Of a stretch of DNA of 64,000 nt, positions 14,028 through 26,057 are shown piece by piece (the stretch's first letter is position 1; each line of letters starts with the position of its first letter). The DNA lies in contig JAINDK010000030.1 in NCBI GenBank assembly GCA_019931185.1, forward strand, positions 1-64,000. The letters are read 5' to 3'. The translations under genes were made by a program, and so were the position numbers. A model generated the notes under the pieces. The model did not search any database. It saw only the letters and a list, made by a program, of their open reading frames with translations, and was not told where the DNA came from. The stretch comes from Bryobacter sp. CoA8 C33 (lineage in GTDB: Bacteria > Acidobacteriota > Terriglobia > Bryobacterales > Bryobacteraceae).

Positions 14028-17000
14028 TCAGAGTTGCAGAACGACGTTGAGATCCTTGCCGGGCAGACCCTGAGCCGCGGAGGGGACATTGAGAATGTCG
14101 ACCGTGACACGGGAGGTGGCGGGGAGAGCGGGGAGGTTGAACGCGTTGAAGCTGTTGGAAGTGAAATTACCGGGAGCGATGGTTAGCTCGCAGTAAGGGT
14201 TACCGTTGACGCGGACCAGGATGAGGATGGCAGCACCGGTGGGAGGCTCCTGGACGTAGGCGAAGACATCACGGACGACGGTCTTACGGTCGAGGACCAG
14301 GGAGTTGCCAGCGGAGGCCTCGATGGCTAGATAGCCCTGGATGCTGTTGATCAGCTGGCCACCGCTGAGGCAGCGAATGCCGAAGTTGGAAAGGGCGGTG
14401 TAGTTGGCCTCGCCGCGAGCGCCAGGGCCGAGGCGATTCCAGAGGACGAGACCGGCGGCGGAGAGCCGGACGTTTGGCAGGCGGATGTGATGGCGGAAGC
14501 CGAGAGCGGAGAAGGAGTTGAAGTAACCGGGAGCAAAGGGGATGGTAGTCTCCAAGCGGGAGAGGGCAAAGACCGGCGTACCGGAGGTGCAGGCCGCGGC
14601 GGGAGTGCCATAGCGGGAACGGAGGACCGGATAGACCCCGGGGGAGACGGGCGCGCCGGAGACTTCGAGGATTTCTTCTTCGATCTGCAGGGGGGCGCCT
14701 TCGGGGAGAGCCGCGGCGAGGCCGGCGATGGAGAGAGTGGAGTCTGCCGGGCTAAGGGTGGCGGCGAGGCTGAGGGGAGTGGGGGCGGAGAGTTCGTCCC
14801 AGTAAAGCAGCCCGAGCTGGCCGAGGTAGACGGTGGAGAGGTTTTCGAGAATGGTGAAGGAAAGGGGACCGATAGCGATGGTGCCTTCTTCAATCAGGTT
14901 GATGGTGAAGGCGGGCTCGGGGGGCAAGCCGGCATCGGAGCCGCCGGAGGCACCGACGCCGACCTGCCAGAGGAGGGAGGGCGCATCGAGAGGGTCGAGT
15001 TCGGAGTTGTCGCGGGCCACTGAGCGAAGACTGACTTCAAAGGAAGAGCCAGTCTGGAGCGGCAGCAGGACGTCGATGTCAGAGGTATCGGATTCGGCAG
15101 CGAAGCTAAACGCAGTCTCGACAATGGCGAAGCGCGAGGAAGCATCGGGCAGAATGAGCCAGGGCACGGCGAATTGGATCGTGTCGGCGGTGTTGGCGGT
15201 GATGACACGCTCCTGACCGGCGCCTTTGCCGGAACGGATCACGAGTTTCTTGCCGGTCCAGCGATCAGGAATCAGGTTGAGCGCAGTGCGGGTGATCGAA
15301 AGCGGGGTCCAGGCGGTGGGCGCCTGATCGACGAGATAGACCTGGCGGAACCAAGCGCGGAGACGGCTGTAGTTGGGATCGGGCGGCAGTTGCGCCTCGA
15401 GGAGAGTCCCGGTGTCGGTGACTGAAGACGAGACGGGCAGCGCGGCAGCCACACGCAGCAGAGCGTTCGGGGAGGAGCCGCGATACAGACGCAGGGACTG
15501 AGTCGCGGAATCGGCACTGATACCGGTGAGCGTGACACGGTTGGTGGAGGTGGCGCTGGTGAGACGGACCGGAACAAGGCTGGAGAGCAGGCTCTCACGG
15601 CCTTGAGCATCAACGGCAGTCAAGGCGTAGAAGTAAGAACCCGGGGCGAGCGATCCACCGGTGGAGGCGACCGAATAACTGAAGCTGACCAGGGGAACGG
15701 AGGCGGTGGAGCCGGTTTGCGCGAGTGGACGGCGGAAGGGGATGTGAAGGCGGCAGCGCTGGGCGCCGGAGTCATCGACGGCGAGACTTTCGGAGGCTGC
15801 AAAGCGGATGACACCCTGATCAACGACGGTGCCGCAGATGGCACGAGACGAGGCACTGCTCCAGGCATAAATGCGGGAGCGGTCGTAGCGGGTGGCGGGA
15901 TCATCGGAGTACCAATGATCCTGGTGCAGTTGGGCGACGATTTCCATCTCGTCGAGGCGGCTGGAGAGATGGAACTCAAGAACGCGGAAGAGGGTGCGGT
16001 CAAATCCGTAGCGGCTATAGCTGACGGCGATCAAATCGCCGGGCCGGATGTGGACACCACGAATGGAGGTGCGGAACTGAATGAAGAAATTGCCAGCGAT
16101 GGACTTATTAAGGGCGGTCTGGCAGATGCGCTGGGCCTGGGCGAAGTTTGGAACGCCGGTGGCGGGCAGGGCCTGGTTGACTTCCTGGCGGCGCAGGCGA
16201 ATGTCGTCAGTATCAGCAATCGAGATGCTGTCCTGCTGGAACTCATTGAGAGAATCCTGGATCTCGAAGGAGACGCGGTTGGGGGAATCCTGGGAGGGAC
16301 GGGAAAAGACGCGGAATTCCGGTTCGCGGCGGCTATTGACGAGAATGCCGCCGGCGGGGCCCAAGCCCTCGCCGAACTCATAAACGGGCCAGCCGCTGTT
16401 GACCTGGCTGGGGGCATTGCTGCCAGCGGGTTTGACAGGCTGTTGGGCGGCGATGGTGGATTCGGGGCGGACGGCGAGGCGGCCGTCGGGCTGGTAGAAG
16501 AGAAAGAGCAGGGAGCCGAGGCGGAGTGAGCGCAGGAGTTCGCCGACGCTATAGCGGCGGTTGAGGACGAGATTGCACTCGAAGCGGCGGACCTGACGAA
16601 GATTGCCATTGGCGTCGCGAGCCTCGAGGGTTTGGTCGCAGAAGGAGGCGGCGGCGCGGAAGGAAGCCAGATCGAGTTCGGGAAGCTTCCAGCCGGTGCG
16701 GCGGAGAATATCGCAGAGAATCCAGGCGGGATTGGCGGACCAGGAGAAGCTTTCGAGATCGCCGGTGGAAGAGAGGATGGGCAGCTTGAGGCCTTTGAGG
16801 AGAACCTGGACCTTGGGGCTGCGCTTGCCATCGTTGATGCGATTGGGCAAGACGAGATTGAGGTAGGCCATGCTGCCATAAGGGTCGCCAACGGGAGCGC
16901 CAGAACCGTCGGCAAAGCCGAGATTGCGGTTGCCGTTGCGGTTGCCGGTGCTGACGAGGTTGTACCAGCCGGTGCCGGTTTGATTGCGGCCATCGACGCC

Positions 17001-17939
17001 CTCGGGGATTTCATAGCCGTCGGCGACGACTTTGATGACGGAATCGATTTCACCGAGGCCGAGGAGGACTTCGGAACGGGTGAGATTGCCGTCGTTACGG
17101 GAGAAGACAACGGGGGCCTGGAGCCAGCCCTGGCCATAGACGACGGGGACGACGTCGTTGTAGCGGGTGTCGAGGCTGACGAGGTTGGAGACACGGCCGG
17201 AGGATTCGCCATGGCCACGGACCAGGAAGGAAGGGGGAATGAATTCAAAGCCGCTGAAGCGATTGGTGGGCCGGTTGGCGGAATCCTTGCTGAACATACC
17301 GCGCGATTCGCAATCGCGGCGGGTGAAGTTACAAGAAGTGAATGGTTGGGCGCAGTCGAGGTTACCAGCGCCGCCGGCGACATCGGGGGAATAACCGCAG
17401 CGGAAAAGCGGCGAGTAGCGGCCATCCTCACCGGAACCGCAGGCGAGTTGGCGTTCGGTGGAGTTGGAGGGGAAAGCCCAGGAACATTCTTTTTGAATGC
17501 GCATGGGGGGGAAGCTGGAGCGGATCGCGCTAAGCCGGCTCATGACGTTGAGGCGGGCGGAAGCACCATCGAGGTCGCTGACAGTGTCAAGCAGACCGGT
17601 CCAGAGGACGGTTTTGGAAGTGACGTTGCGGCCGGAGAGAATGGCGGCGGAAAACTGGACCTTGGCGCCGAGCAGCATACCGGTGCGGTAGAGCTGGGCG
17701 ATCGAGCCATCGTGATCGGCGAGCACGAGGGAGAGCTGGCCGGCGGATTCACTGGAGACGTCGCTGGTGAGCTTCCAACGGGTGCTCTGTCCGGGATGGA
17801 TGCGGGCCTCGTATTCACGGGAACCGTCCAGGCAGCGGGAGTCAGCCCAGAAGCGGCTGGCGCCATCGGAGAGCGTGACTTCGCACAGCAGGGAAGTCAC
17901 GGGAACGGAGGGAAGTTCTTTATCTTGGAAGAGGCTCAT
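14028..17939 (-). CDS. Phage-type tail-tip/host-specificity protein with L-like and J-like parts
   Basis: A 1303-residue protein, the last gene of the head-tail cassette. Residues about 1-240 resemble the lambda gpL and gene-transfer-agent baseplate type, with a set of cysteines (KEC, LAC, FRCGY, LDC, TSC, RDC) followed by an NRFSGF segment. That is the pattern of the gpL iron-sulfur cluster region. The middle (about 250-680) looks like a J/baseplate-hub domain with IRPGDLIAVSYSRYGFDRT. A fibronectin-III-like segment (about 750-845) and a beta-rich C-terminus probably form the tip. It overlaps the preceding gene by 4 bases. Assignment rests on pattern and gene order, and the receptor is unknown. 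Confidence 0.75.
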   Translation of the reverse strand: MSLFQDKELPSVPVTSLLCEVTLSDGASRFWADSRCLDGSREYEARIHPGQSTRWKLTSDVSSESAGQLSLVLADHDGSIAQLYRTGMLLGAKVQFSAAILSGRNVTSKTVLWTGLLDTVSDLDGASARLNVMSRLSAIRSSFPPMRIQKECSWAFPSNSTERQLACGSGEDGRYSPLFRCGYSPDVAGGAGNLDCAQPFTSCNFTRRDCESRGMFSKDSANRPTNRFSGFEFIPPSFLVRGHGESSGRVSNLVSLDTRYNDVVPVVYGQGWLQAPVVFSRNDGNLTRSEVLLGLGEIDSVIKVVADGYEIPEGVDGRNQTGTGWYNLVSTGNRNGNRNLGFADGSGAPVGDPYGSMAYLNLVLPNRINDGKRSPKVQVLLKGLKLPILSSTGDLESFSWSANPAWILCDILRRTGWKLPELDLASFRAAASFCDQTLEARDANGNLRQVRRFECNLVLNRRYSVGELLRSLRLGSLLFLFYQPDGRLAVRPESTIAAQQPVKPAGSNAPSQVNSGWPVYEFGEGLGPAGGILVNSRREPEFRVFSRPSQDSPNRVSFEIQDSLNEFQQDSISIADTDDIRLRRQEVNQALPATGVPNFAQAQRICQTALNKSIAGNFFIQFRTSIRGVHIRPGDLIAVSYSRYGFDRTLFRVLEFHLSSRLDEMEIVAQLHQDHWYSDDPATRYDRSRIYAWSSASSRAICGTVVDQGVIRFAASESLAVDDSGAQRCRLHIPFRRPLAQTGSTASVPLVSFSYSVASTGGSLAPGSYFYALTAVDAQGRESLLSSLVPVRLTSATSTNRVTLTGISADSATQSLRLYRGSSPNALLRVAAALPVSSSVTDTGTLLEAQLPPDPNYSRLRAWFRQVYLVDQAPTAWTPLSITRTALNLIPDRWTGKKLVIRSGKGAGQERVITANTADTIQFAVPWLILPDASSRFAIVETAFSFAAESDTSDIDVLLPLQTGSSFEVSLRSVARDNSELDPLDAPSLLWQVGVGASGGSDAGLPPEPAFTINLIEEGTIAIGPLSFTILENLSTVYLGQLGLLYWDELSAPTPLSLAATLSPADSTLSIAGLAAALPEGAPLQIEEEILEVSGAPVSPGVYPVLRSRYGTPAAACTSGTPVFALSRLETTIPFAPGYFNSFSALGFRHHIRLPNVRLSAAGLVLWNRLGPGARGEANYTALSNFGIRCLSGGQLINSIQGYLAIEASAGNSLVLDRKTVVRDVFAYVQEPPTGAAILILVRVNGNPYCELTIAPGNFTSNSFNAFNLPALPATSRVTVDILNVPSAAQGLPGKDLNVVLQL

Positions 17940-18733
17940 AAGGATCTCTGGCTCACAATTCGAAGAGAGATGGAATGCGCACCTGGCGCGTTGGATTGAG
18001 AAACAAAGTCAGACTGATCGAGCCAGGCATGGGGAAAGAGCCCGGAATCAGATGAGGTGGCATGATAGGCGCCAGGCTGGAAGGCGATCTCGAGTTGGGG
18101 TGCGGCCACGAGGATCTGGGTGGTGGCGGGCACGGTAATCGAGACGATGCGCGAGGACGGGGCGGGTGCCGGGGAATGAGACACGTGGAAAGACCTCCAG
18201 GGACCAGCGAGGCAAATGCGGGGAGTGCTGCCTGAATCATCGCCGAGAGAAATCGAAAAATTGACTGGAGAAGTCCAGCGGGCCCGGAGGCTGAAGCAGG
18301 CGGCAAAGGGGCCGGAGAGGCTGACGGATTGGGACAAGGACAGGGGCGCTGGAGTGGGATTGGTCAGGATGAAAGCCGCGGGCTGACCGGGATCGGCGAA
18401 GGGCGCGACCGTGAGGCCGGGACTGGCGAGCCAGACGGAGGCCGTGAGATCGCGGGAGGCGGCGAGCAGGTTGCCGAGGGGGTCGGGGAAGGCGAAGGAG
18501 CGGGCGCCGTGGCCGGTGAGGGCGATGAAGCTGCGGAAACGCTGCCATTCGGCGTCGCTCAGATTGTCGTAGGCGAGCGACCAGGAGTAGCGCAGGAGGC
18601 TGTTCTGGGAATCACGGATCTCGCTGCCTTCGGGAAACAGGAGGCGCGGAATGAGACGTTCGATGGTGAGACGGATGGGCAATTGGGCGATGGCGCCGCC
18701 ATCGAGATGAGGGAAGACGATGGGGTCAGACAT
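17936..18733 (-). CDS. Tail protein with M-like N-terminal half and beta-rich C-terminal half
   Basis: A 265-residue protein. Its first about 110 residues share layout and motifs with the 115-residue gene just upstream: a tryptophan strand (WSLAYDNLSDAEW), then an aromatic FRSFIALTGH segment, then FAFPDP. That suggests duplication of a lambda gpM-type distal tail domain. The remainder is beta-rich and could be a carbohydrate-binding jelly roll. The start at 18733 overlaps the upstream gene by 8 bases (ATGTCTGA) and begins MSDPIVFPHLDGG. A longer in-frame N-terminus is antisense-like and rejected. Confidence 0.7.
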   Translation of the reverse strand: MSDPIVFPHLDGGAIAQLPIRLTIERLIPRLLFPEGSEIRDSQNSLLRYSWSLAYDNLSDAEWQRFRSFIALTGHGARSFAFPDPLGNLLAASRDLTASVWLASPGLTVAPFADPGQPAAFILTNPTPAPLSLSQSVSLSGPFAACFSLRARWTSPVNFSISLGDDSGSTPRICLAGPWRSFHVSHSPAPAPSSRIVSITVPATTQILVAAPQLEIAFQPGAYHATSSDSGLFPHAWLDQSDFVSQSNAPGAHSISLRIVSQRSL

Positions 18734-19073
18734 GGTGCACCTCGAGTTCGAGAGAGTAACGGAAGTCGCGACCGGCCACGAGGTTGAGAGTGGGGGAAGC
18801 GAGGCGGCAAGACGGGAATGTCTCACCGGTCCAGGGGTCGATGAAGTCGAAGAAATCGTTTACGGGCAGCGACTCGAAGAAAGAACGCAGGGAACGGGCT
18901 TCTTCCTCATTGAGCTGGGAGTAGTTGAGTTGCCAGACAGTTCGTGGCTGGTTGGAAGTGGCGTGAGTTTGGCGCTGGCCACCGAGGAAGAAGTGTTCCT
19001 GGTGGCGGGCCGGTTCGATGCGGCGGGCGGAGTATTGGGCGAGCTGGCCGGAGAGAAGCTGCGGGAAGGTCAT
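18726..19073 (-). CDS. Minor tail protein, lambda gpM-like
   Basis: A 115-residue protein of the size and layout of lambda gpM: RTVWQLNYSQLNEEEARSLRSF, then DFIDPWTGE and a final beta strand YSLELEVHHV. In siphoviruses this protein links the tape-measure complex to the tail tip. It starts 3 bases after the tape-measure stop and overlaps the next gene by 8 bases, matching H-M-L order in lambda. Assignment is by position, size and weak motif similarity. Confidence 0.7.
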   Translation of the reverse strand: MTFPQLLSGQLAQYSARRIEPARHQEHFFLGGQRQTHATSNQPRTVWQLNYSQLNEEEARSLRSFFESLPVNDFFDFIDPWTGETFPSCRLASPTLNLVAGRDFRYSLELEVHHV

Positions 19074-19075
19074 GG

Positions 19076-19681
19076 CTAGAGCTCACCGAGGTTGTCATTG
19101 ATTTCGTGATTGGACAGCATGGCCTTGCGGAGGGCGGCGGCGATATCATCGCTGCGGTCGAGAATGGATCGGCCATCGAGAGCCTGGATGGTGATGTTGA
19201 CGGGCGTGGGAGCAGGGGGGGCAGCTTGAGCGAGGCCGAGGGAGTCGCGGCGGAGGGCGGCGGGGGCCTGGTCGCGAGAGGAGGAGGCGGCAACATCGGT
19301 GCGTGTTGGGTTGGGAAACTCGAAGGGGGTCAAGGCTGGTGGTTCGCTTGAGGAGGAGCGGCCATTGAAGATGTTAAAGATGCCGCGCCAAACCGGGCCA
19401 AGGAAGAGGGTGGACAGGAGGTCGGAGCCACGGCGGGAAGAGAGGGGGTTGAAGGCGGAGAGTAACTGATTGGCGACGCCGGAGGACTGGGAGTTGGACT
19501 GAGGATTGGCGACGGCGTTGACGATGCGGCCGAGCGAACTGTGGGTATTGTTCGAGAGCTGTTGCACCTGACTGGATACGTTGAGGCTGTTGAGAGTCAG
19601 CTGTTCGATCATGGAATTGAGGATGGAGCCGATGCTCACGCCTGGGTTGGAGGTTTTGTCTTTGTTGGTGTCGTTATTCAT
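19076..19681 (-). CDS. Short tape-measure-type tail protein
   Basis: A 201-residue protein directly downstream of the tail-assembly chaperone pair, where siphoviruses encode the tape measure. It has a polar N-terminus, a helical segment with SILNSMIEQLTLNSL and VQQLSNN, a hydrophobic stretch (LLSTLFLGPVWRGIFNIF, about 90-107), a Pro-rich linker and a C-terminal helical cap with SILDRSDDIAAALRKAML. The start ATG at 19681 is preceded by AAGGA with about 9-base spacing and overlaps the stop of the frameshift extension. It is unusually short for a tape measure. At about 1.5 angstrom per residue it would specify a tail near 30 nm. Confidence 0.65.
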   Translation of the reverse strand: MNNDTNKDKTSNPGVSIGSILNSMIEQLTLNSLNVSSQVQQLSNNTHSSLGRIVNAVANPQSNSQSSGVANQLLSAFNPLSSRRGSDLLSTLFLGPVWRGIFNIFNGRSSSSEPPALTPFEFPNPTRTDVAASSSRDQAPAALRRDSLGLAQAAPPAPTPVNITIQALDGRSILDRSDDIAAALRKAMLSNHEINDNLGEL

Positions 19682-19988
19682 GGTCGGAATCCTTGAGATG
19701 AGTTCGGATGGCCAGGAGGGCGTCACAGTCGGCGGCGGGCCAGGCGAGGGCCTGGGCGGGGTCGACGGAGGCAGTCCAGCGGGAAAGCGAAATCCAGTAA
19801 TGCGCCATGGGCTCAATGGAGCTTTCGGGGCAGGCGAAAAAGAGAGCCGAGGAGCCGGCCCAGACAGGAGCCGCGGCGGGTTCCAGATGGAGGAAACCGC
19901 AGCGGCGTGTGGTCTCAAGCCCCCGCAGACGACAAGAGCCGCACTCCCAGCGGGGGCTGGAATTCAGGTATTGGAGGGCGGCAACTAA
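19674..19988 (-). CDS. Frameshift extension of tail-assembly chaperone (T part of GT)
   Basis: This is a 104-codon open frame in -1 relative to the upstream gene. It begins at the heptamer and ends with TAA across the ATG of the tape-measure gene. Its first ATG is at codon 61 and no ATG, GTG or TTG precedes that in frame, so it is unlikely to be translated independently. It starts LVAALQYLNSSPRWE and contains CGSC and RRCGF, a CxxC plus a third Cys, then WISLSRWTASVDP. Expected product: a GT fusion of about 229 residues made at low frequency, which in lambda recruits the tape measure to the tail tube protein. Confidence 0.75.
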   Translation of the reverse strand, partial: LVAALQYLNSSPRWECGSCRLRGLETTRRCGFLHLEPAAAPVWAGSSALFFACPESSIEPMAHYWISLSRWTASVDPAQALAWPAADCDALLAIRTHLKDSDHE

Positions 19989-19994
19989 TTTTTT
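19938..19994 (-). promoter_or_regulatory. Programmed -1 ribosomal frameshift site
   Basis: The heptamer A AAA AAT occupies 19988-19994 and immediately precedes the TAG stop (19985-19987) of the G-type gene. Five bases downstream of the heptamer, GCCGC (19978-19982) can pair with GCGGC (19938-19942). This outer stem encloses a second hairpin, CCAGC/GCTGG (19947-19951 and 19956-19960, 4-base loop). A slippery site followed by a structure at about 5-9 bases is the known design of -1 frameshift signals. Confidence 0.75.
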
Positions 19995-20362
19995 CGGCGG
20001 GTCTCGCTGAGGGCGATTTCGTCGCTTGCGCGGGCGAGCACTTCCAGGCAGAGGCTGGAAGGGGCCTGATGGAGAATCCAGTCGATATCGCGAGAAGGAA
20101 TGCCGGAATCGGGATCGGCGGTCTCCAGGGCGATGAGGCCGAGATCGAGGACGGCGTGGCTGAGATCCAACTCGAGAGACGCCATGGCAGCGAGGGTTTG
20201 TGGGTTGGGCTCGGGGGAGGCGGCGAGAAAGCGGATCCGGCTCATGAGCTCATGATTGGCGGCGAGAAAAGCGAGCCGCTGGGACAGTGAGATGCGGCGC
20301 ACCCGGATCATGAGACCCGGGTGCGCGGCGGAGGGATAACTGGACTCGAGAAGGAGCTGCAT
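19985..20362 (-). CDS. Tail-assembly chaperone, G-type
   Basis: A 125-residue helical protein located between the tail-tube gene and the tape-measure gene, the invariant place of lambda G-type chaperones. It starts 3 bases after the tube-gene stop. It ends RRKN on a run of six A residues before TAG, and the -1 frame is open beyond it. Sequence similarity to a named family is not evident to me; such chaperones diverge strongly and are usually found by position and frameshift. Role: binds the tape measure and brings tail-tube subunits during assembly. Confidence 0.75.
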   Translation of the reverse strand: MQLLLESSYPSAAHPGLMIRVRRISLSQRLAFLAANHELMSRIRFLAASPEPNPQTLAAMASLELDLSHAVLDLGLIALETADPDSGIPSRDIDWILHQAPSSLCLEVLARASDEIALSETRRKN

Positions 20363-20365
20363 GGG

Positions 20366-21535
20366 TTATCGCATCGCCAGGAAGACTTCATCGTTGGCAG
20401 CGCCCAGGGCGAGAGCGTTGCGGAACTGCCAGAGCAGGCGAGGCTGGGAGTCGTTAAAAGCCGGTACCGGGAAGAGGACGGCGGGCAGGTAGATGGCAAA
20501 CAGGGAGCCGGGTTGGGTGCCCATCTGGAGCATGACGGAGAGGGGCTGGTTGAGTGTGGCGCTCGAGTACAGGACCTGACTGATGAGGTCATTGCGCTCA
20601 AAGAGGGTGAGGTCGAGGGAGACCTTACGGCGGCCGAGGACAAAACCCTTGGTTTCGTAGCAGCCGAACTCGTCCGTGCGGGGTTCGATGTTGTTCTCGA
20701 TGCGAACTTCGGCCTGCGTGAGGGTGCAGAAACGCGAGGCGGGCGAGCCGATCCAGACCTGACCGAGGTGGCCGGCGATGGGGGCGCTGATGGCCGACTG
20801 GGCAGCTGGGGGCGGATCGGGGAACTGGAAGTTGACGCCGCCCACTCCGCTGACATTGTCATAGAGGGAGGTAGCGTAGCCGCGGGTTTCGACCTCGAGG
20901 AAATCGTTGTTGACGCGAATGCGCATCTGATCGGTTACGGCGCCGCTCACGAGGCGCTGCACGGCTTGAGCGGGAGCCCAGGTATCGAGGATCGAGAGCG
21001 GACGGACGGCATCGCCCGGGGCGAGATTGGCGCAGACCTGGAGATCGGAGGCAGGGGCCAGTTGAACCGAGAAGGGCGCGTTGAGAGTGAAGTCGCGGGG
21101 ACCGGCGATGGAGGCGACGAAACGAATTTCAGCGCCGAAGGCGAGGCCCATGCCAATGGTAAGGTTGGCATCGGCCTGGAGAGTCACGTTGACGCTGGAG
21201 GCGGCACTGACCTTGAGAGTGGCGCCGATGGCCATGGCATTGCCCATGCCGCTTTCAAGAAGGGGAGCGATAGCGGGCTTGGAGGTGGACCCGGACCAAC
21301 CGGTGCCGTAGCTTTCGAGATTGAACTCAAGCAATTCACGCTGTGGGCCGAGGACGGGGGATTCCGAGCGGAAGCCTGTCTTGTCGCGGCGAAAGAGTTG
21401 TTTGCGGTTGCTCGTCAGCGCAAAGCTGGTGACGGGCGCCAATTGGGCGTCAGCCATGGAGGCTAAGCCGGGAAAATCGGATTCCGATTTAAGGAAGATT
21501 CGATTGGACAAAGAGGCGATGTATTCGTTAGCCAT
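20366..21535 (-). CDS. Major tail-tube protein
   Basis: A 389-residue beta-rich protein starting MANEYIASLSNRIFL, followed by a long set of strands with the pattern SMADAQLAPVTSF and DEFGCYETKGFVLGRRKVSLDLTLFERND. The latter resembles tail-tube domains of the lambda gpV/siphovirus type that stack in hexameric rings. It sits between the tail-terminator-like gene and the G chaperone, with 2-3 base gaps on both sides. An inserted region with EIRFVASIAGPRDFTL may form an outer decoration domain. Tube identity is inferred from fold-like pattern and order. Confidence 0.75.
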   Translation of the reverse strand: MANEYIASLSNRIFLKSESDFPGLASMADAQLAPVTSFALTSNRKQLFRRDKTGFRSESPVLGPQRELLEFNLESYGTGWSGSTSKPAIAPLLESGMGNAMAIGATLKVSAASSVNVTLQADANLTIGMGLAFGAEIRFVASIAGPRDFTLNAPFSVQLAPASDLQVCANLAPGDAVRPLSILDTWAPAQAVQRLVSGAVTDQMRIRVNNDFLEVETRGYATSLYDNVSGVGGVNFQFPDPPPAAQSAISAPIAGHLGQVWIGSPASRFCTLTQAEVRIENNIEPRTDEFGCYETKGFVLGRRKVSLDLTLFERNDLISQVLYSSATLNQPLSVMLQMGTQPGSLFAIYLPAVLFPVPAFNDSQPRLLWQFRNALALGAANDEVFLAMR

Positions 21536-21537
21536 GG

Positions 21538-22029
21538 TTATTCCTGCCAGAGGTGAATTTCGAAAGAGATCGTGGCGTTTTGCACGAAGTTGAGGCCGCC
21601 CCGGGAAACGGGCGAAACGTCGACGTGAAAGCCGCCGGCATAGAAGACGCCGTCGGCCCAGAGGCCCTGATTGCGATTGAGAACATCGCAGAGGGCATCG
21701 ACATAGTCGCCGAGGGCGGACTGGAGATCGGCGGCTTTTTCGTGAGTCAGAGTGAGTTCAAACTGCAAGCCGGCCAAGGCGCTGAAATCGGCCAGTTTAT
21801 CTTTTTGACCCCGATACATTTTCGTGAGCGCGATGGAGACGCGGGGAAAACGGTTGTCGGGAATGCGATCAGCGAGCTTCGCACTCCAGTAGGAAGTATC
21901 GACCGTGAAGCGGGCTTCGGTGGCGAGCGAGCCGCGGAGTTCCTCGATGGTCTCGATGCTGACCTTGAGACCGGAGGGGCCACTGAGCAATTCGCGCGCG
22001 GCGGAGACGGCGCGGGATGAGAGGTTCAT
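21538..22029 (-). CDS. Tail terminator/completion protein, gpU-like
   Basis: A 163-residue protein with alpha-beta layout: SGLKVSIETIEELRGSLATEARF at the N-terminus, RFPRVSIALTKMYRG in the middle, and a C-terminal strand ATISFEIHLWQE. Size and location, between the head-tail connector gene and the tail tube gene, match lambda gpU, which caps the tube and joins it to the head. Spacing to both neighbours is 2 bases. Assignment by context; a neck or virion-morphogenesis role is nearly certain, the exact one less so. Confidence 0.65.
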   Translation of the reverse strand: MNLSSRAVSAARELLSGPSGLKVSIETIEELRGSLATEARFTVDTSYWSAKLADRIPDNRFPRVSIALTKMYRGQKDKLADFSALAGLQFELTLTHEKAADLQSALGDYVDALCDVLNRNQGLWADGVFYAGGFHVDVSPVSRGGLNFVQNATISFEIHLWQE

Positions 22030-22031
22030 GG

Positions 22032-22793
22032 CTATCTCCAGAGCTGGGGCGAATGAATGAAGTATTGGTCCGGGAGTTGGGCTTCCGGGTTGGCAACCGG
22101 GGCGCCGATCGCGGGCAGGGAGGGTGTAACCTCGACGGTGGCGCCGGCGGGGACCGGAGCCGTGGTGGCGCGGTAGAGCGGATCAGAGGTTTCGCCGAGG
22201 AAGAGTAACCAGCCGGATACATTGGCCGGCAGGGAAGCGAAGCTCAACTGAGCGGTCTCGCCGTTTGTTAGATCGAGATTGAACTCGGAGCTGAGGGCGC
22301 CGACGGCGCCGCTGGCGGAAACGAAGCGAACGCGAGCGCGGAGGAAGCGCGGAGCGTTGGCGCCAGGAGCCAGCACAACGAAAGGCAAGGGAGCTTTGGG
22401 GATGGGCTGATAGACGATACCGATACCGGTTTCAAAGAGTTGAACGCGGGCGGCGTCGGCTTTCAGGTCGTAATACCGGGCCTGATCGCGATGAAGGGTG
22501 TTGTTCTGCAAGCAGGCGATGTCGGTATAGAACAGGCTCAGGGTGAGGAGACTGTGCCAACGCGCAAGGGGTTCGGTAACAACGATCTGGGAGAGAAGCT
22601 CTCGCGCCGCGAACTCGGACAGGCCGCTCTGACGGAGCAGGAAGCCAGTGACCTGGGTTTCGATTTCGTTCTGGGCGAGGCGCGATTTGGCTTCGATCGA
22701 GGTGGATTCCTGTTCGGAAAGGATCGTCAATTTGGTGTCGTAAGCCATCCAGTCGGTCAGGCAGGTGATGAGTTGATCTTTCAATAAGGCCAT
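22032..22793 (-). CDS. Head-tail connector-like protein with C-terminal Ig-like domain
   Basis: A 253-residue protein. Residues 1-130 are helical (MALLKDQLITCLTDWMAYDTKL.., QARYYDLKADAARVQL), as in adaptor or connector proteins downstream of the capsid gene. Residues about 140-235 are beta-rich (RARVRFVSASGAVGALSSEFNL.., LPANVSGWLLFLGETSDPLYR) and resemble a fibronectin/Ig fold. A similar segment occurs in the tail-tip protein, suggesting shared surface-decoration domains. Position between coat and tail terminator supports a neck role. I do not recognise a precise family. Confidence 0.55.
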   Translation of the reverse strand: MALLKDQLITCLTDWMAYDTKLTILSEQESTSIEAKSRLAQNEIETQVTGFLLRQSGLSEFAARELLSQIVVTEPLARWHSLLTLSLFYTDIACLQNNTLHRDQARYYDLKADAARVQLFETGIGIVYQPIPKAPLPFVVLAPGANAPRFLRARVRFVSASGAVGALSSEFNLDLTNGETAQLSFASLPANVSGWLLFLGETSDPLYRATTAPVPAGATVEVTPSLPAIGAPVANPEAQLPDQYFIHSPQLWR

Positions 22794-22826
22794 GGGCTTT
22801 TGCTCGATTCGTGGTTTGAGGAAAGA

Positions 22827-22856
22827 ACGGGACTGGCCCCGAGGGACCGGTCCCGT
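22827..22856 (-). terminator. Hairpin between coat gene and connector gene
   Basis: On the minus strand ACGGGAC (22850-22856) pairs with GTCCCGT (22827-22833). Most of the interior (GGTCCC with GGGGCC, one G-U pair) also pairs, giving a long stem with a 2-4 base loop. It is followed by TCTTTC. It may be a partial terminator or an RNA-stabilising hairpin that raises coat-protein mRNA over downstream tail mRNA. Confidence 0.5.
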
Positions 22857-22876
22857 CGAGAGAGGACGTCTGAGTG

Positions 22877-23785
22877 CTAGCTGCGCACCTGGACGCCGTG
22901 GTTGTTGCGGAGAATGGCGCAGCCGTACAAGCAGTCGACGGTGAACTGCTGGGACAGGGTGTCGGGCTGATAGCTCATGACGACGCGCACGCCGAAGTTG
23001 CCGAGTTCGGCGTATTCGGCGACGGCGCCGGTACCGGGCAGCGGCTGCGGAAGACGGCGGACAGCGAGACCGATGGCGTTCTTGGCGAAGGCCAAGTTAA
23101 AGGTGGTCAACGGACTGCCAGACTTACGGACGAACTGGGACCGGAAGACGTAGAAGTCCTTGAGGCGGCCGATGCTGCCCTCAATGATGGCTTTCAGACC
23201 CGCTTCGCCCGCGCGGGAGTATTCGCTGAAGCGGGGATTTTGACGCAGGGCGGAGTAGCCGCTGGCATCGACAACCAGATACTTCTGAGCGCTGGCCGGA
23301 ACCTTGGCGTTGAAGAGAGCGGTTTCCGCGTCGTCCACCACCTGTTCGGTGAGCGGAGTAGCGGCGGCACCGAGGGGCGTGTTGGCCGTAAAGGTATTTG
23401 CGAGCGCGAGCAGATCGGTTTCGACACGTTCGGCGAGGGCGACGATAGCGGGCTCCATATAGAGCTTGAGCAGGTCAGGTACGGCCAGAACCTTGGTGAC
23501 ATCGGGGATCTGGAAAGTAGCTTCGGCGTGGGTGTTCAGAACAATCTGCGCATTGCCGAGGTTGGGATTCTGGGTAACGACCGCGCCGCCACGGGCGAGG
23601 TTATTGGCGATCAGGGTCGGCGGCACGGGAACATTGACCGTGTCGCCAGCTTTTGCCAGGGTGGGCTCGAAGTCACGATTGACGAGGTTACCCATCACAA
23701 GATTGCCCATGAGGGCAGGCAGCGCATCGGCCGCAACGAGCTTCACGATCGCATTTGCAAGATTCGCATCGGTAATAGAAGGCAT
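22877..23785 (-). CDS. Major capsid (coat) protein, P22-coat-like
   Basis: A 302-residue HK97-fold coat protein. The N-terminal pattern NLVNRDFEPTLAKAGDTVNVPVPP is characteristic of P22 coat-like families. RLKDFYVFRSQF, LTTFNLAFAKNAIGLAVR and the final YGCAILRNN follow in the usual order. The P22-type coat needs a scaffold but no prohead protease, in accord with the scaffold gene upstream and the lack of a protease gene. It follows the scaffold gene by 22 bases. A strong hairpin downstream may boost its relative expression. Confidence 0.85.
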   Translation of the reverse strand: MPSITDANLANAIVKLVAADALPALMGNLVMGNLVNRDFEPTLAKAGDTVNVPVPPTLIANNLARGGAVVTQNPNLGNAQIVLNTHAEATFQIPDVTKVLAVPDLLKLYMEPAIVALAERVETDLLALANTFTANTPLGAAATPLTEQVVDDAETALFNAKVPASAQKYLVVDASGYSALRQNPRFSEYSRAGEAGLKAIIEGSIGRLKDFYVFRSQFVRKSGSPLTTFNLAFAKNAIGLAVRRLPQPLPGTGAVAEYAELGNFGVRVVMSYQPDTLSQQFTVDCLYGCAILRNNHGVQVRS

Positions 23786-23807
23786 TGAATTTCCTTTGTA
23801 AGTTGAG

Positions 23808-24383
23808 TTATTCGATCAGCAGGCCAGCCAGGCGCGCGATTTCCTTGCGCGCTCGGGCCATGTCTTCTTTACTCATCCCCGGCCGAATCGAATTGATATC
23901 GACTCCCGGGGATGATTGGGAGGAACGGCTGGAAGAGGTTGTACCGCTCCCACCCAAATTTCGTGCCGGCAGCAGTTCGGGATTGTCATCCACGAATTTG
24001 CGGAGGAATTCCGCTACCGGAATGGGACCTTCAGTGCCCTTGGCGTGGAGGGAACCATCGGAGTCCCGCTGAATATCGTCCTTGACAGCTTTAAAGGCTA
24101 AGTCGAGCTTGGCGACGCCGAGGCGCTGGAGTTCGGTGCGGATAACAGTTTCGCGCTCCATCGATTCGGCGCGGGCTTTGGAGCGGCGGTTCTCTTCGAT
24201 GACTTCGTTGAGGCGCTTTTCCATCAATTCCCGCTTGCGGCGTTCTTCTTCGAGTTCAGCCTTGTAGGCGGGTTCGGTACGTTTGTGTTGCACGGAAGAG
24301 TACTCTTCAAAAACCTCATGGATGAGTTTTTTGAGATCCGGCGAAGGACTTACCGGAAGGGAAGAATCGTTGTTTGAGTTCAT
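23808..24383 (-). CDS. Capsid scaffolding protein
   Basis: A 191-residue, highly charged protein with a long coiled coil (about 35-90; AELEEERRKRELMEKRLNEV and following). It then has a linker rich in Ser and Gly, and a basic helical C-terminus (MSKEDMARARKEIARLAGLL) of the kind that binds coat protein. Location between portal and coat genes is diagnostic. It overlaps the portal stop by 4 bases. Assignment by architecture and order. Confidence 0.8.
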   Translation of the reverse strand: MNSNNDSSLPVSPSPDLKKLIHEVFEEYSSVQHKRTEPAYKAELEEERRKRELMEKRLNEVIEENRRSKARAESMERETVIRTELQRLGVAKLDLAFKAVKDDIQRDSDGSLHAKGTEGPIPVAEFLRKFVDDNPELLPARNLGGSGTTSSSRSSQSSPGVDINSIRPGMSKEDMARARKEIARLAGLLIE

Positions 24384-25786
24384 TCTTGTTCTCCTTTGTC
24401 GATCTGGGCTTCAATTTCGGCGGCAATTCGCTCTTTTGTGGTTTCGTTGATGTCGGCGAGGAACTTGAAAGCGAGCTTCTTGAGGGCTTGCTTACGGAAC
24501 GTACTGGAGGACAGGCCGAGGCGGAAGAGCTTTTCGGCCTCGTCGAGTTCTTCGTTGAACTCTCCCACCTCGAATTCGTCGAGACCGGAAACGGAGATCC
24601 GTAAATCATCCTTGCGAACGTGGACGAGGACCTGCAGAAGACGTTTCAGGGTGTCCTTGACGGAATCTCCATAGGCGCGAAGCACTTCCTGGGTGATCTG
24701 GTAATCGGCGCGTTTGCTGTAACCGCTGACCTGAGCGGAGCCGGAGAGCCAACTGCGTGACTGCCCCATGAGGTAGCAAGTACGATAGATCTCCTCCTGA
24801 AGACGGGCGAGGTTTTCCATAGCGATGCGGAAGACATTGCCTTCAGGTTCGGTCCAACCGAATTTGTCCTCAGGATCGAGGTGGATGTAATAAGACTCGC
24901 CGAGGATCGATTTCCAGTCGCGCTTGCTGTAGATAACCGGTGTGGCGTAAAGGGCCATGCCAAGCGACCAGGACAGCGAGTTTGATTTATTGAAGTGCTC
25001 GATCTGGAGGTGAGCGGCTTTGTTCATGAGCCACAATCCGTCACTGAGAGCGATTTCGAAAATGGGGACGCGGAATTCGGAGGCACAGGAGTGCGGACCG
25101 GATTCGATCACGCGGAGTGAGTTAGAGTCATCGGATTCTTTTTCAACGATGAAGTAACTGGTTTCGTCGTAGATTAGGTAGCGGAGTAGTTCAGCGGACG
25201 AGGCCAGAGCGCCGGCGTGGCGTTCTCCGGCCAGACGCACCACGAAGAGGGTGACGCGGCCATCGGGACCGGCCTGCCAGTTGATGACGTCGGCGGGGTG
25301 GATCGAGGTAAGGTAACCACGATCTCCGCCGAGGGCTTCTTCCTCGAGGCGGCTGCTGAAGGCAGCAGCGAGTTTGGGAAATTCGAGCGCGATAAAAGCT
25401 TTCCCAAAAATGAGAGCTTCAATGAAGCGCTTGCGCAGGAAGTCGGTAATCGAGGTTCCGTTGCGGTCGCAATTATTGAAAAATTCAAAGTAATACTTGC
25501 TGGCGCGGCGTGAACTGTCTTCGACAGTAAGGATCGGCTCGCGCCGGAACAGAGTAGAAGCGTACCAATCGATGATGGAGCCGATGTAGTTTTCGTAAAA
25601 GGCGCGGGAGACTCTTTCCTGGTAAACTTCGGCGGGTTCACGGTGGCGTCGGTAGAGATAATTGCTGGCCTTGGATTTCATTTGGGCGCCGCCAGCGTAG
25701 AGATCGCGGTACATCTCTAGGGTGGGAAGCCAGGCGCGGTACTCCGGATGAGGCTGGAGGGCATCGGCAATTTGCGTCAAGTCCAT
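24380..25786 (-). CDS. Portal protein (DUF4055-like)
   Basis: A 468-residue portal: an N-terminal clip/stem part with HPEYRAWLPTLEMYRDLYAG, then VYQERVSRAFYENYIGSIIDWYASTLFR. A middle wing has LTSIHPADVINWQ and a helical C-terminal stem/crown has RADYQITQEVLRAYGDSVKDTLKRL. The pattern fits the DUF4055 phage portal family. The ATG at 25786 is preceded by GAGAAG; an in-frame TTG 21 bases upstream has no better site. It is the first gene of the cassette. No terminase large or small subunit precedes it: the next gene upstream is the divergent ribBA. Confidence 0.85.
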   Translation of the reverse strand: MDLTQIADALQPHPEYRAWLPTLEMYRDLYAGGAQMKSKASNYLYRRHREPAEVYQERVSRAFYENYIGSIIDWYASTLFRREPILTVEDSSRRASKYYFEFFNNCDRNGTSITDFLRKRFIEALIFGKAFIALEFPKLAAAFSSRLEEEALGGDRGYLTSIHPADVINWQAGPDGRVTLFVVRLAGERHAGALASSAELLRYLIYDETSYFIVEKESDDSNSLRVIESGPHSCASEFRVPIFEIALSDGLWLMNKAAHLQIEHFNKSNSLSWSLGMALYATPVIYSKRDWKSILGESYYIHLDPEDKFGWTEPEGNVFRIAMENLARLQEEIYRTCYLMGQSRSWLSGSAQVSGYSKRADYQITQEVLRAYGDSVKDTLKRLLQVLVHVRKDDLRISVSGLDEFEVGEFNEELDEAEKLFRLGLSSSTFRKQALKKLAFKFLADINETTKERIAAEIEAQIDKGEQE

Positions 25787-25797
25787 TTCTTCTCGAA

Positions 25798-25835
25798 TAC
25801 GAAACAATCGCTTCGTAACTTTCTGTTAGTTCGTA
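25798..25835 (-). promoter_or_regulatory. Three TTCGTA/TACGAA hexamers before the portal gene
   Basis: TACGAA (25798-25803), TTCGTA (25812-25817) and TTCGTA (25830-25835) lie within 38 bases directly upstream of the cassette. The first two form an inverted repeat with 8-base spacing. This could be an operator or an RNA hairpin next to the portal start. The rest of the 25787-26057 intergenic region holds the ribBA ribosome-binding site but no gene or FMN riboswitch that I can see. Confidence 0.35.
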
Positions 25836-26057
25836 TCTGCAGGGCAGTTACCCCAGAAAGAAATTAGCGTTGGGAGGATGTGTTTTTTTTCCATTGGCCG
25901 GTATTTCCTTGATTCGAAAGGAAATAAAAAGTACAAACCAATGGGAATCTATTTTCGAGGCCGAAAGGAGGGACTTTGGGCGGAGATAGGAAGGCGGCGG
26001 CCTTGCCAGACGGGGGTGAAACGGGGTCGGGCCGGAGTCGGCGACAATGGAGGATAT

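Follow-up and report, generated by a model that had tools for sequence, protein, structure and literature searches.

Frameshifts in the tail-chaperone genes of phages are textbook knowledge, and the slip site of phage lambda is GGGAAAG. In the lambda G/GT frameshift, ribosomes move into the −1 frame close to the 3′ end of a small gene located between the tube and tape genes; the short protein is the main product and the fusion the minor one (PMC5009743). Retroviral gag-pro signals, such as that of MMTV, combine an A_AAA_AAC heptamer with a pseudoknot (PMC5009743). In Escherichia coli, A_AAA_AAC is a weak slip site (PMC5009743). Among insertion sequences, a cluster that uses A_AAA_AAC is listed as proven with no established stimulator (PMC4066793), and some IS elements carry pseudoknot stimulators (PMC4066793, PMC5009743).

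We examined a 64,000-nucleotide stretch of DNA from Bryobacter sp. CoA8 C33 (contig JAINDK010000030.1, hereafter the window), in which a first-pass annotation had proposed a programmed −1 frameshift at the end of a tail-chaperone gene, here called G. The heptamer, the −1 reading frame and the missing conserved start codon in relatives from the family Bryobacteraceae all support this proposal. On this comparative evidence, the end of G almost certainly encodes a programmed −1 ribosomal frameshift into an extension that we call T. The junction has the following features.

20362-19985, minus strand: gene G in the zero frame, 125 aa ending RRKN, stop TAG
19994-19988, minus strand: slippery heptamer A AAA AAT, covering the final two sense codons of G; most relatives have A AAA AAC
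19983-19987, minus strand: 5-nt spacer, which contains the zero-frame stop TAG
19674-19988, minus strand: T extension in the −1 frame, 104 aa plus stop; W14, C16, C19, R28, C30, W43, C53 and P54 invariant
19973-19982, minus strand: pseudoknot stem 1, 5′ arm (GCCGC C CTCC), from predicted fold and covariation
19938-19947, minus strand: pseudoknot stem 1, 3′ arm (GGAG T GCGGC), from predicted fold and covariation
19950-19958, minus strand: pseudoknot stem 2, 5′ arm AGCCCCCGC, in the stem 1 loop; consensus in relatives CCAGGCC
19918-19926, minus strand: pseudoknot stem 2, 3′ arm GCGGGGGCT, from synonymous covariation

The 3′ end of G reads CGC CGA AAA AAT TAG on the minus strand. The −1 frame reads TTA GTT GCC, stays open for 104 codons (19988-19677) and ends at TAA (19676-19674), so that its end overlaps the start (ATG at 19681) of a downstream 201-aa gene. 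Within the window's T extension the earliest ATG, GTG or TTG is codon 61, and the 88 open codons of the −1 frame upstream of the heptamer contain none of these triplets. The first-pass annotation had described the heptamer on the last two sense codons, the 104-codon frame from TTA with no start before codon 61 and a stem beginning 5 bases past the heptamer. Each of these is confirmed in the window, the fold placing the start of the stem at 19982, and the interval originally marked (19938-19994) corresponds to the heptamer plus stem 1. The A AAA AAT form of the heptamer is present as described, but it is a minority variant of a motif that in relatives nearly always ends in AAC. Six A residues followed by a T are not rare in themselves, with five minus-strand copies within the window. 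The copy at the end of G is nevertheless far from chance, because its position, frame, extension and RNA fold are kept in about 175 distinct junctions; conservation across junctions rules out a chance heptamer.

We searched for G in 150 Bryobacteraceae genomes and obtained matches in 102, one in each, representing 61 of 76 genera. Excluding G062, whose match does not hold at the junction, leaves about 101 of the 150 genomes. A second set of loci, from a coat-protein search, comprises MAGs from Bryobacteraceae and other Acidobacteriota and includes records titled Bryobacter, Paludibaculum, Ca. Solibacter and Ca. Sulfopaludibacter. The few loci in this set that carry other taxon names are likely mislabelled bins. 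Together the two sources gave 177 distinct junction sequences, in which the heptamer is AAAAAAC (166 junctions), AAAAAAT (7 junctions), A AAA AAA (L193 and L234) or disrupted (2 junctions).

Of the 177 distinct junctions, 175 thus have a slippery heptamer in zero-frame register and a −1-frame extension after it, which is the conservation in homologues that the first-pass annotation had proposed to look for. The residue whose codon bears the first A of the heptamer varies (R 159, E 5, K 3, I 3, Q 3, A 2, T 2), and across these seven residues the third base of that codon is A in 176 of 177 junctions, against a background of 16%. The Lys codon that follows is almost always AAA, a codon that accounts for 26% of Lys elsewhere in G and T. 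Protein-level constraint cannot be the cause of this wobble-A and AAA conservation. The zero-frame stop is the codon right after the heptamer in 163 junctions, and the remaining 14 have a sense codon there, nearly all of them stopping one sense codon later. In G002 and G148 the full heptamer is kept and the zero-frame stop is absent for more than 30 codons.

The two disrupted junctions retain T and stem 1. One, from a single MAG contig (G017, the same as L015, L136 and L220), reads GAGAGAAAC TGA, and the other (L247) reads AGAAACAAC TAA. A broken heptamer above an intact downstream frame had been named at the outset as evidence against programmed frameshifting, and it occurs in these 2 of 177 junctions only. 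Real loss, slippage of a single tRNA or an assembly error could each account for them, and they do not outweigh the 175 others.

The T extension also evolves as a protein in the −1 frame, a sign of coding selection. Substitutions in T by −1-frame codon position (253/172/673 in 25 close pairs) are biased towards the third position, like those of G in its own frame (210/109/679). In an alignment of 102 sequences, all eight of the T residues listed above are invariant, and AlphaFold2 models built on these alignments have a mean pLDDT of 90.8 for G and 93.3 for T. T is a separate domain with four invariant cysteines and probably binds zinc. The slip site, the RNA fold and this putative zinc-type domain are kept in more than 50 genera. 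No start codon is conserved for T, whose first codon is CTG, CTA, CTC, TTA, CTT or TTG; extensions with their own start in homologues, the other observation flagged initially as contrary evidence, are not a conserved feature of the junctions.

Downstream of the heptamer, RNAalifold on 98 sequences predicted a 10-pair stem after a 5-nt spacer. Stem 1 of the window (GCCGC/GCGGC plus CTCC/GGAG) has a folding energy of −18.8 kcal/mol (z −2.3) and the same spacer. Pairing is maintained in 96.7% of stem 1 cells, compared with 39-56% in slid controls, and 40 cells are changed on both sides, compared with 11 in shuffles (0 of 500 shuffles reach 40). Folding energy is most unusual for the 55-nt segment that starts at +4 (mean Z −2.7), whereas most other offsets give values close to zero.

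The loop of stem 1 pairs with sequence further downstream, giving an H-type pseudoknot in which AGCCCCCGC (19958-19950) pairs with GCGGGGGCT (19926-19918) in the window and CCAGGCC pairs with GGCCTGG in most relatives. Among 43 ungapped sequences, stem 2 pairing holds in 81.1% of cells (18-56% in slid controls), with 16 double-changed cells versus 5 in shuffles. Swapping the downstream arms of stem 2 among sequences weakened the duplex from −16.3 to −13.4 kcal/mol, and a control segment had no such effect. The clearest sign of stem 2 is synonymous covariation between a Gln and a Leu codon, in which CAG occurs with CTG and CAA with TTG (counts 55/7/4/19; Fisher p 9e-10, a value that ignores kinship). 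A loop Ala codon is GCC in 142 of 144 sequences, against a background of 22%. Kinship is not fully removed from the covariation tests, but the concern is limited because taking a single sequence from each of 56 genera still gives duplex energy z-scores of −9.8 (stem 1) and −8.4 (stem 2).

These compensatory changes show that the stem belongs to a conserved H-type pseudoknot, which is new in this analysis. The stimulatory stem of the first-pass annotation is thus present and covarying, but forms part of a larger fold. No Rfam family matched the signal at E up to 1. A Shine-Dalgarno stimulator is not supported either; an SD-like motif is found in 46% of cases, compared with 35% background, and is absent in the window.

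The arrangement suggests the following mechanism. Most ribosomes would stop at the codon after the heptamer and release the 125-aa G protein. We infer that a fraction of ribosomes would meet the pseudoknot that starts 5 nt downstream of the heptamer, upon which the Lys and Asn tRNAs would re-pair one base back, from A_AAA_AAU to AAA_AAA, and translation would go on to produce a 229-aa G-T fusion. Loss of queuosine as the reason for slippage on AAC is not supported, as tgt was present in 7 of 7 genomes checked.

Other ways of expressing T have to be weighed against tandem slippage. T could be a separate gene, reached by re-initiation or from a non-standard start beside the G stop. About half of the junctions have CTG as the first T codon, upstream SD-like motifs are a little commoner than background (46% versus 35%), and 28 of 171 junctions have some ATG, GTG or TTG within the first 12 codons. 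Most other junctions, including that of the window, begin with CTA, CTC, CTT or TTA, however, and no start is conserved, the window having none before codon 61 or in the 88 upstream codons. A separate gene would also leave the wobble A of a varying codon, the heptamer and the pseudoknot unexplained, and we consider it extremely improbable. Nearly as improbable is transcriptional slippage, in which frames would be mixed at the A6 run by RNA polymerase and not by the ribosome. Nearly all members do have a run of at least six A (10 in L011, 9 in L234), but six is short for bacterial RNA polymerase slippage, and both the register of the heptamer with the zero frame and the pseudoknot at a 5-nt spacer are translational features. 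A less remote alternative, though still a quite unlikely one, accepts ribosomal slippage and ascribes it to the P-site tRNA alone while a slow stop codon occupies the A site. The stop that directly follows the heptamer in 163 of 177 junctions would fit such a slip, as would the two disrupted junctions, which still permit a single-codon move from AAC to AAA. Against it, the heptamer is kept in the 14 junctions with a sense codon next, among them the two (G002 and G148) with no stop for more than 30 codons.

The proposed role of the two products comes from the genes around them, which form a complete head-tail structural cassette at 14028-25807 of the window and include the following.

19076-19681, minus strand: tape-measure-position gene, 201 aa, short and helical (phrog_3779 tape measure, E 0.095); its ATG overlaps the end of T
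20366-21535, minus strand: tail-tube-like protein, 389 aa (PF18906, E 1.2e-5, below the Pfam cut-off; phrog_290, E 2e-4)
14028-17939, minus strand: J-like tail tip protein, 1303 aa (PF13550, E 1.7e-11; phrog_31, E 2.9e-21)
22877-23785, minus strand: P22-type major coat protein, 302 aa (PF11651, E 5.8e-18; phrog_283, E 3.2e-42)
24380-25807, minus strand: portal-like protein, 475 aa (DUF4055, sub-threshold)

G lies between the tube-like and tape-position genes, an order that is conserved across long loci. By analogy with lambda, G and GT are probably a tail-assembly chaperone pair, in which G would coat the tape protein and T, carried on few copies, would recruit the tube protein. The label rests on gene order and mechanism because G and T match no known family. 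In the window neither has a known family in Pfam or PHROGs, and relatives give scattered weak matches. Foldseek returned no significant match in the PDB for G or T, nor any in BFVD for T, and the best Z values in a VIA structure comparison did not rise above background (2.1 for T, 7.4 for G). No phage relative of a consensus-like G-T protein was found in 50,697 phage records, where one match was at chance level. The frameshift could thus be real and GT could do another structural or regulatory job in the particle; the lack of a sequence family or significant fold match would allow this and, to our knowledge, a four-cysteine domain is not the known form of lambda T. We regard this other job as unlikely, since the gene matches lambda G/GT in its place between tube and tape, in its size and in the −1 frameshift at its 3′ end, and since Foldseek lists the HK97 tail chaperone 2ob9, though weakly (rank 14, E 2.4, TM 0.37/0.42). 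For the chaperone reading, the order of tube gene, G, extension and tape measure noted in the first-pass annotation is right, with the tape label itself depending on order and a weak match. Its comparison with the lambda arrangement holds for order and mechanism but does not extend to a sequence match or significant fold match with known chaperones.

The cassette runs in the order portal, scaffold, P22-type coat, adaptors, tube, G/T, short gene, distal tail genes and J in all loci examined at length, some of which are incomplete at one end. Of 124 Bryobacteraceae genomes with a completeness of at least 95%, 108 carry the coat gene, nearly always once, and it occurs in 51 of 52 genera. Sampling 297 genomes across the phylum gave only two matches, both in Bryobacteraceae. 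Coat proteins are 73-87% identical between genera, and neighbouring tail proteins mostly 25-40% identical outside the window's genus. The coat protein (22877-23785 in the window) is under unusually strong constraint. Many of these chromosomal cassettes are filed in IMG/VR as 4-21 kb 'viral' contigs (L192-L271), one of which (L192) has a coat protein 100% identical to that of the window. In some genera, a conserved ORF of ~650 aa directly follows J (L037:17928-19922, L039:1-1935); it has no Pfam match in L037.

Host genes flank the cassette in the several genera examined. In the window's genus, ribBA and rne lie to one side, and the opposite side carries genes for an ABC transporter and an M24 peptidase. 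ABC or ABC/M24 genes likewise flank the cassette in some other genera, and proline dehydrogenase, penicillin-binding protein, histidine kinase or alcohol dehydrogenase genes are found elsewhere. No integrase or replication genes were present in the flanks examined, which cover a few genera. A large terminase adjoins the portal in other genera (L035-L039), together with an apparent small terminase in L035. In the window's genus, a search of five genomes yielded no homologue of this large terminase (portal side, window 25807-25878), and the structural genes persist without it.

The host-gene flanks, usual single copy and family-wide presence fit a domesticated, GTA-like element, and the cassette looks like such a family-wide element rather than an ordinary prophage. 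It is plausible that the cassette is a gene transfer agent, and G/GT would most likely serve a short-tailed, vertically inherited, gene-transfer-agent-like particle. A domesticated cassette that is still selected for a precise protein ratio argues that particles are still made. More tentatively, we suggest as one possibility that Bryobacteraceae carry an undescribed, vertically inherited GTA-type particle whose assembly needs a retrovirus-like A_AAA_AAC and pseudoknot frameshift, under selection at the level of base pairs, which gives the tail chaperone a zinc-binding T domain; this particle would persist without its own terminase in the window's Bryobacter-like genus. In literature of incomplete coverage, we found no description of this cassette or of its frameshift signal.

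Standard gene calling in Bryobacteraceae genomes likely misses the second half of the G-T protein. The signal itself is a bacterial pseudoknot signal, readable by synonymous covariation in more than 50 genera, on a heptamer that is weak in E. coli. It thus provides a natural case in which to test the response of bacterial ribosomes to pseudoknots.

Lambda G/GT is the nearest functional model for G/T, here with a proposed division into major short product and minor fusion. The Bryobacteraceae locus differs from lambda in its A_AAA_AAC/U heptamer with an H-type pseudoknot 5 nt downstream, in a T with four invariant cysteines and no detectable homology, and in belonging to a family-wide chromosomal cassette. 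The MMTV-type signal shares the heptamer, short spacer and H-type pseudoknot, whereas the signal described here lies in a bacterial mRNA, with a stop right after the heptamer and a long loop 1. The Bryobacteraceae signal resembles retroviral signals more than those of dnaX or lambda, and no common ancestry with retroviral signals is implied. IS-element frameshifts likewise use an A-rich heptamer on bacterial ribosomes, in some cases with pseudoknots, but here the gene is structural, not a transposase, and the pseudoknot covaries across a bacterial family. Like RcGTA, the element is a small, family-wide head-tail cassette, usually in single copy and without adjacent integration or replication genes. 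RcGTA also has a short gene in the tape position and a tip protein of about 1300 aa, sizes that the cassette shares. In contrast to RcGTA, the element has a P22-type coat, with no homology to RcGTA seen in this analysis, and in the window's genus terminase is missing beside it. Each ingredient is thus known in some setting, and what is new is that they are combined, that T is a four-cysteine domain and that the whole sits in a family-wide host cassette.
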